Below are positions 34,139-36,238 of a stretch of 40,134 nucleotides of DNA, one piece after another (within the stretch, counting starts at the first letter, position 1; every line of letters begins with the position of its first letter). Origin of the DNA: an uncultured Chloroflexota bacterium (GTDB lineage: Bacteria > Chloroflexota > Anaerolineae > Aggregatilineales > Phototrophicaceae); the NCBI GenBank assembly GCA_903864435.1, contig CAIPFY010000182.1, forward strand, positions 1 through 40,134. Direction: 5' to 3'. Position numbers and translations under genes: made by a program. The notes under the pieces are model-generated. The model did no database searches, was not told the DNA's origin, and worked only from the letters and a program-made list of their open reading frames with translations.

Positions 34139-34930
34139 TCAACGCCGTTTGCGCTTGTTGGCCTGCGAGAGTTCGTCGTCGTACACTTCGGTGATTTCGC
34201 CGTCGTCGGTGAGTTCCAGCCGGCTGCGGCGGTCATTCTTGGGCTTTTCGTAGGCCATGCTGCGCTCGCGTTCACGCTGAATCTCGCGCTGGATTTCGCG
34301 TTCGCGCTTCTCCGCGCCGCCGCCGTATTTGTTGTAGTAGTCGCTGATGTGCGAGAACAGGCCGATTCCCCAGAAGAACATGACGATTAAAGGCCACGGG
34401 AAATCTATGACCTGCTGCACCTCAGACGGCAAGGCCGTCCCACTTATCGTCTGGAAGATTTGCGGCGCGTCACTCGCCCATATCGCCCACATCAACAGGT
34501 TCACGAACACGTAAACCGCCGTGTGGATGATGACGCCCGTCCGTTCCTCGCGGCGCTTGATGACCCGTTCGCGGATGCGTTTTTCTTCGATCTCCTCCGG
34601 CGTGAGTCCGGCGTTCGAGCCAGCAGAGGCTTCGCGCACTGCCACTTCAATCTGGTTGGCGATGCGCTCCACCCACTGCGCCCCTTTGCGAACACCCTCT
34701 TCTACTTTGCGCCCCGCGCTCTGAAACTCCAGTTGAAATTCCACTTTGGGCGACTGGGACGATTGCTGCGCGTTCGGGCTGGGGATGCTGACGTACTTGC
34801 GCCCGCCCTCGTCCATGCGGACAGGTGGAATCGGCGCGGCACGCTGCGCGAACGAACGCTCGGCCTGTATCCGCCCGATCAGCGCCCAAATCCAGTAGGC
34901 TACTGTCCTGCACCGCCATGCGGAAGGCAT
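34139..34930 (-). CDS. 2TM-domain protein, probably the frameshifted tail of the upstream kinase
   Basis: A frame of 263 codons that reads in a different phase from the kinase at 34647-35729 and overlaps it by 284 bp. The real protein sequence begins near QAERSFAQRAAPIPPVRMDE (about 22-41) and continues through a charged region and an EEIEEKRIRERVIKRREERT stretch (about 113-132). A 2TM domain follows: TGVIIHTAVYVFVNLLMWAIWAS, then FPWPLIVMFFWGIGLFSHIS. The tail is helical and charged, then RSRLELTDDGEI. The first 20 codons look like shadow sequence. If independent, the start would be ATG 34816. I consider it more likely part of the kinase gene; see findings. Confidence 0.65.
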   Translation of the reverse strand: MPSAWRCRTVAYWIWALIGRIQAERSFAQRAAPIPPVRMDEGGRKYVSIPSPNAQQSSQSPKVEFQLEFQSAGRKVEEGVRKGAQWVERIANQIEVAVREASAGSNAGLTPEEIEEKRIRERVIKRREERTGVIIHTAVYVFVNLLMWAIWASDAPQIFQTISGTALPSEVQQVIDFPWPLIVMFFWGIGLFSHISDYYNKYGGGAEKREREIQREIQRERERSMAYEKPKNDRRSRLELTDDGEITEVYDDELSQANKRKRR

Positions 34931-35729
34931 CCATCAGCGCGTTGGGGCTGTCGTACCGTTCCGAGGGTTGCTTGGCAAGCGCCTTCATCAGCACATTTTC
35001 CACTTCCGGCGTGATATTCGGGTTCATCTCCGAAGGGCGCGGGAGTTCGGTGTAAATATGATCGTGAACGACGGCATAAGGCGTGTCGGCGGTGAACGGC
35101 ACGCGCCCCACCACCATCTCGTACAGGATCACGCCTAGCGAATACACATCGGTGCGCGGGTCGAGGTCGCGGCTGCCGCTGGCCTGCTCCGGCGAAATAT
35201 ACTGTGGCGTACCGAGAATCATGTCCTGACTCATGGTGGTCGTGCCCATCTGGGCGATTCGCGCCAGCCCGAAATCCGTCAGGTAAGGGGTGCCGCTGCT
35301 ATCCAGAATGATGTTGGAAGGCTTGACATCGCGGTGCAGCACGCCCCGGCGGTGGGCATAGGTCAGTGCGTCCGCCACGCTGCCCATGATGCGGGTGACT
35401 TCGCTCAGGGGCAGCGGCCCGCGTGAAAGGACTTTCTTGAGCGTTTCGCCTTCCACATACTTCATGACCAGATAGGGTTGGTTGTTCTGTTCGGCATAGT
35501 CGAACACTGGAACGATGTGCGGGTGTTCCAGATTGGCGACAATCTGCGCCTCGCGCTCGAAACGCGAAATAAAGTCCGGCTCGGCGCTAAAGGCCGCATG
35601 GAGCGCCTTAATCGCCACATAGCGATCTAGCTTGGGGTGATAGGCTTTGTACACATTCGCCATGCCACCCGTACCCAGCGGCCCGATCACCTGATATGGC
35701 CCGACCATCTGCCCTTCGTTGAATGCCAT
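34647..35729 (-). CDS. Ser/Thr protein kinase, catalytic part; frame leaves the family sequence after about residue 285
   Basis: A Hanks-type kinase. Catalytic residues are all present: glycine loop GTGGMANVY (19-27), K41, HRDVKPSN (132-139), DFG (152-154) and SPE (179-181). The domain ends around residue 270 (DAFRMAVQD). After about residue 285 the frame reads into Arg/Ala/Cys-rich, atypical sequence (AFVRAACRADSTCPHGRGRA), while the normal tail continues in the overlapping +1 frame at 34139-34930. The complete gene would therefore span 34139-35729 with one frame shift. The start ATG 35729 is 35 bp after the 2TM gene stop, so the two are co-transcribed. As it stands the kinase domain lacks its membrane segments. 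Confidence 0.8.
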   Translation of the reverse strand: MAFNEGQMVGPYQVIGPLGTGGMANVYKAYHPKLDRYVAIKALHAAFSAEPDFISRFEREAQIVANLEHPHIVPVFDYAEQNNQPYLVMKYVEGETLKKVLSRGPLPLSEVTRIMGSVADALTYAHRRGVLHRDVKPSNIILDSSGTPYLTDFGLARIAQMGTTTMSQDMILGTPQYISPEQASGSRDLDPRTDVYSLGVILYEMVVGRVPFTADTPYAVVHDHIYTELPRPSEMNPNITPEVENVLMKALAKQPSERYDSPNALMDAFRMAVQDSSLLDLGADRADTGRAFVRAACRADSTCPHGRGRAQVRQHPQPERAAIVPVAQSGISTGVSERGAQSRRGCSQRGAVGGAHRQPD

Positions 35730-35764: not shown

Positions 35765-36238
35765 TTATAGCGCGTCCGATGAGGGGCGCTGCATATCCGC
35801 CCGTTCCGCCGCGTCGTCCGCGTCCAGCGGTTCTTCGACCAGTTCGCCATCGTCGGTGAGCGACAGCAACCGCTTGCGTTTGGTCACAAGCGGCAGATCA
35901 TCGTCCACACCCAACCGCTGCATTTCTATATCCAGCGCCCGCGCCATCGCCCGTTCGCGCATTTTCTGCTGCCAGCGGCGCGACCCGATGCTTAAGCTCA
36001 TGATGTGGAAGAACAACCCCATCAGCGAACCAATTGTCACCAGCATCATCATGCCGAAGGTGTCCTCGGTCAAAGGAGCGTTCGAGCTGAGCAGCACCGC
36101 CCAAGCCACCGTCGAAAACACCACCGAAACCACAAAATGCCCGAAGAACATGCCGAAACGCGCCTGCTTCTTTTCGCGTTCCAGTTCAACCTGCATCGTG
36201 CGACGCAGTTCACGTAAGTTCACCTGATCGAGTGACAT
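35765..36238 (-). CDS. 2TM-domain membrane protein
   Basis: A 157-residue membrane protein with two helices (about 28-49: FGMFFGHFVVSVVFSTVAWAV, and 62-85: GMMMLVTIGSLMGLFFHIMS) between charged helical arms, the 2TM arrangement (PF13239). The C-terminus carries RKRLLSLTDDGELVEE, closely matching RSRLELTDDGEITEV at the end of the kinase tail downstream. It probably works with, or is derived from, that kinase. ATG 36238 has GGAGG 6 nt upstream. The stop overlaps a TATAAT-like sequence at 35764-35769 that might be an internal promoter for the kinase. Confidence 0.75.
   Translation of the reverse strand: MSLDQVNLRELRRTMQVELEREKKQARFGMFFGHFVVSVVFSTVAWAVLLSSNAPLTEDTFGMMMLVTIGSLMGLFFHIMSLSIGSRRWQQKMRERAMARALDIEMQRLGVDDDLPLVTKRKRLLSLTDDGELVEEPLDADDAAERADMQRPSSDAL

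Follow-up and report, generated by a model that had tools for sequence, protein, structure and literature searches.

The analysed window, a stretch of 40,134 nucleotides, carries two long open reading frames on its minus strand that overlap by 284 bp. The first (35729-34647) encodes a protein kinase of 360 amino acids, and the second (34930-34139) encodes a tail of 263 amino acids in the +1 frame relative to the kinase. The Ser/Thr protein kinase half is intact from residue 1 to approximately residue 285 (34876-35729, minus strand). Pfam matched residues 12-265 of this frame to Pkinase (PF00069; E=4.5e-54), the motifs GTGGM, VAIK, HRDVKPSN, DFG and SPEQ are all intact, and identity to fused relatives is 60-75%. 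The C-terminal half (34139-34867, minus strand) comprises a linker, a 2TM domain and a conserved tail, all read in the +1 frame; here the second frame matches PF13239 (E=2.6e-09), and approximately 43-57% of residues are identical to the corresponding region of the fused relatives. The kinase domain and C-terminal 2TM domain that characterize kinase-2TM fusions are both present, and the single open frame that joins them in such fusions is absent from the window.

A separate, small 2TM-like gene lies directly upstream of the kinase on the same strand (35765-36238), with a PF13239 match (E=0.0012) that falls under the curated cut-off. Small, separate 2TM-type open reading frames adjoin the kinase-2TM gene in relatives too, and several of these relatives have at least two such genes, which look like tail-domain copies arranged in tandem.

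We located the frame change by homology and by coding signal. Protein alignment with 16 relatives showed that the kinase frame matches them up to ..LGADR.. and the tail frame from ..QAERSFAQR.. onwards; kinase homology stops near residues 285-288 and tail homology starts at approximately residue 21 of the tail. The spacing in this alignment places one base too many within approximately 34874-34868 on the minus strand, a net gain of one base compared with the fused relatives, and a codon print-out and the switch in codon usage agree with this interval. The surplus base adjoins a GGG run and lies outside the run itself. Codon log-odds favoured the kinase frame to approximately 34880 and the tail frame from approximately 34870. 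A codon-usage model trained on the window's own genome put the likeliest switch point at 34892-34862, and a frame HMM put it at 34863. The break falls in a poorly conserved linker, and at the switch the codon print-out revealed no stop codon, no recognizable slippery codon and no long homopolymer. Open reading frames, their overlap and the handover of homology therefore bear out the initial annotation, which had described a kinase-2TM gene split by a +1 frame change, a kinase frame that is normal to about residue 285 and a switch within 34860-34895.

Beyond the switch, the kinase frame continues as an out-of-frame extension of 75 residues (34647-34875, minus strand). Its codon log-odds are negative, clear homology past residues ~288-307 was not found in relatives of the same genus, and the corresponding sequence is non-coding in this frame in relatives. 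When the same wrong frame was followed from the homologous point, it stayed open for at least 74 codons in three of the 16 relatives. The 75-codon extension is therefore within the range of chance and ordinary for DNA of 60% GC, and an overlap of 284 bp between open frames is not remarkable in itself in such DNA.

The genome to which the window belongs (contig C182) is a 5.39-Mb draft in 464 contigs and is approximately 95% complete. We searched for the tail in 41 genomes, comprising this genome and 40 relatives. It was present in 29 of them, among which were 15 of the 16 other species of the genus. Sixteen of these matches, 15 from the same genus and one from the same family, formed the aligned set, and in all 16 a single frame of 502-590 codons, uninterrupted by stops, spans both kinase and tail. 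More distant matches (L018, L019, L021-L024, L026, L028 and L029) are single fused frames as well. The frame is broken in the window's genome only, with no frame change in any of the aligned relatives, and this genome holds a single copy of the tail; a second intact copy was not found. Profile scanning returned 17 loci in named genomes, all of them metagenome-assembled; one record carries the label Bacteroidetes, and the others are labelled Anaerolineae, Aggregatilineales or Chloroflexi. Unlike the profile scan, a contig scan using a single tail protein as the query gave no matches.

This distribution argues against two of the ways in which the locus might be read, and leaves an assembly or sequencing error or an ordinary mutation. 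The first is that a soluble kinase is encoded separately from a 2TM protein whose gene starts at 34930 or 34816. ATG codons are present at both positions, but the one at 34930 sits inside kinase codons, and the one at 34816 aligns with an internal methionine of some fused relatives (MDD..) and is preceded by no Shine-Dalgarno sequence evident by eye. The initial annotation had named two separate genes in close relatives as grounds for refuting its reading; the relatives carry one. With no plausible internal start and with fused relatives, we rejected a separate downstream gene, which we consider very improbable.

The second is programmed +1 frameshifting, by which one gene would give rise to both a soluble and a membrane kinase. 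Two overlapping open frames and a switch in the linker between domains are what such a mechanism would display, and nothing else speaks for it. Against it stand the length of the overlap, which chance accounts for, the lack of a stop or recognizable slippery codon at the switch, and the unbroken frame in all of the aligned relatives. We also looked for a stimulatory RNA structure around and after the switch: the predicted fold was no better than those of shuffled sequences (z = -0.03), and the RNA at the switch matched none of the Rfam families searched. A literature search found nothing on kinase frameshifting, and one on indel errors yielded nothing of use. We rejected programmed frameshifting for want of conservation, a slippery site and RNA structure, and regard it as highly unlikely. 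A lineage-specific frame change that yields a soluble kinase, and in which leaky frameshifting supplies some of the membrane form, would be similarly far-fetched. If programmed frameshifting did operate here, it would represent a new mechanism by which a bacterial kinase alternates between a soluble and a membrane form. The split is of a type of single-base break that other genes of draft metagenome assemblies also display, and a claim of recoding calls for conservation. Among the explanations first offered, a break confined to one genome leaves error and mutation, and programmed frameshifting, unconserved and lacking signals, is unsupported.

We surveyed 843 kb of the window's genome, sampled as stretches, for other frame breaks. 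The survey was done partly by eye and yields no calibrated rate, and the detector is not exhaustive: a wider scan did not pick up even the kinase break. On inspection by eye, most of the automatically flagged candidates proved to be ordinary genes in adjacent, overlapping or convergent arrangement, and we set these aside. Three further breaks stood out. The tsaD gene is broken at a run of approximately nine C (contig C6 of the same genome, locus L082, ~11387, minus strand). Of the two tsaD pieces, which are in different frames, the first is this genome's only TIGR03723 match above the cut-off. Because tsaD is essential in most bacteria, its split here is indicative of consensus indel errors. 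A repeat-rich surface-protein gene (contig C2, L045, ~4900, plus strand) switches frame within a G-rich stretch, with its coding signal persisting beyond the change, and a gene that appears chelatase-like by eye (contig C45, L133, ~5357, minus strand) changes frame at a run of approximately nine A. Assemblies of relatives contain at least two similar breaks in 580 kb (L148, ~5255, plus strand; L071, ~9875, minus strand), one of which sits at a C run, so the window's genome is not clearly exceptional in this respect.

The state of the tail bears on whether the break exists in the organism. Tail divergence matches kinase divergence, with a mean residual of -1.5 points against a standard deviation of 5.8 among pairs of relatives. 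The tail is as conserved as the kinase half predicts and shows no decay, so the break either arose very recently or is not real. If this lineage or strain did acquire a recent frameshift mutation, its product would be a truncated soluble kinase followed by 75 nonsense residues and lacking the 2TM tail. Such a mutation is compatible with an intact kinase domain and intact catalytic motifs, and the cell could tolerate losing the tail; the undecayed tail and the other broken genes of the same assembly, one of them normally essential, weigh against it. Assembly indels are commonest in long homopolymers. The kinase break lies outside any such run, which counts against an error, and real mutation accordingly keeps an appreciable share of the probability, as the weaker of the two main readings.

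We favour, as the probable explanation, one ordinary kinase-2TM gene with a single surplus base that reflects either an error in the consensus or strain variation left unresolved by the metagenome assembly; error rather than mutation is the most likely origin of that base. The gene would encode, like its relatives, a Hanks-type Ser/Thr kinase with a linker that connects it to a two-helix membrane domain at the C terminus, interrupted in the linker by the surplus base in this draft genome, and the living cell probably produces a normal membrane-anchored kinase.

Two known systems provide a comparison. Genes with a programmed +1 frameshift of the prfB type resemble the locus in having a +1 change inside the coding sequence, but the window lacks the stop codon, slippery codon, stimulatory signal and conservation of those genes. 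The kinase-2TM fusions of Aggregatilineales and Anaerolineae (PF00069 with PF13239) share the domain order and the conserved C-terminal motifs found in the window; their frame is unbroken, whereas that of the window is broken once, in the linker.
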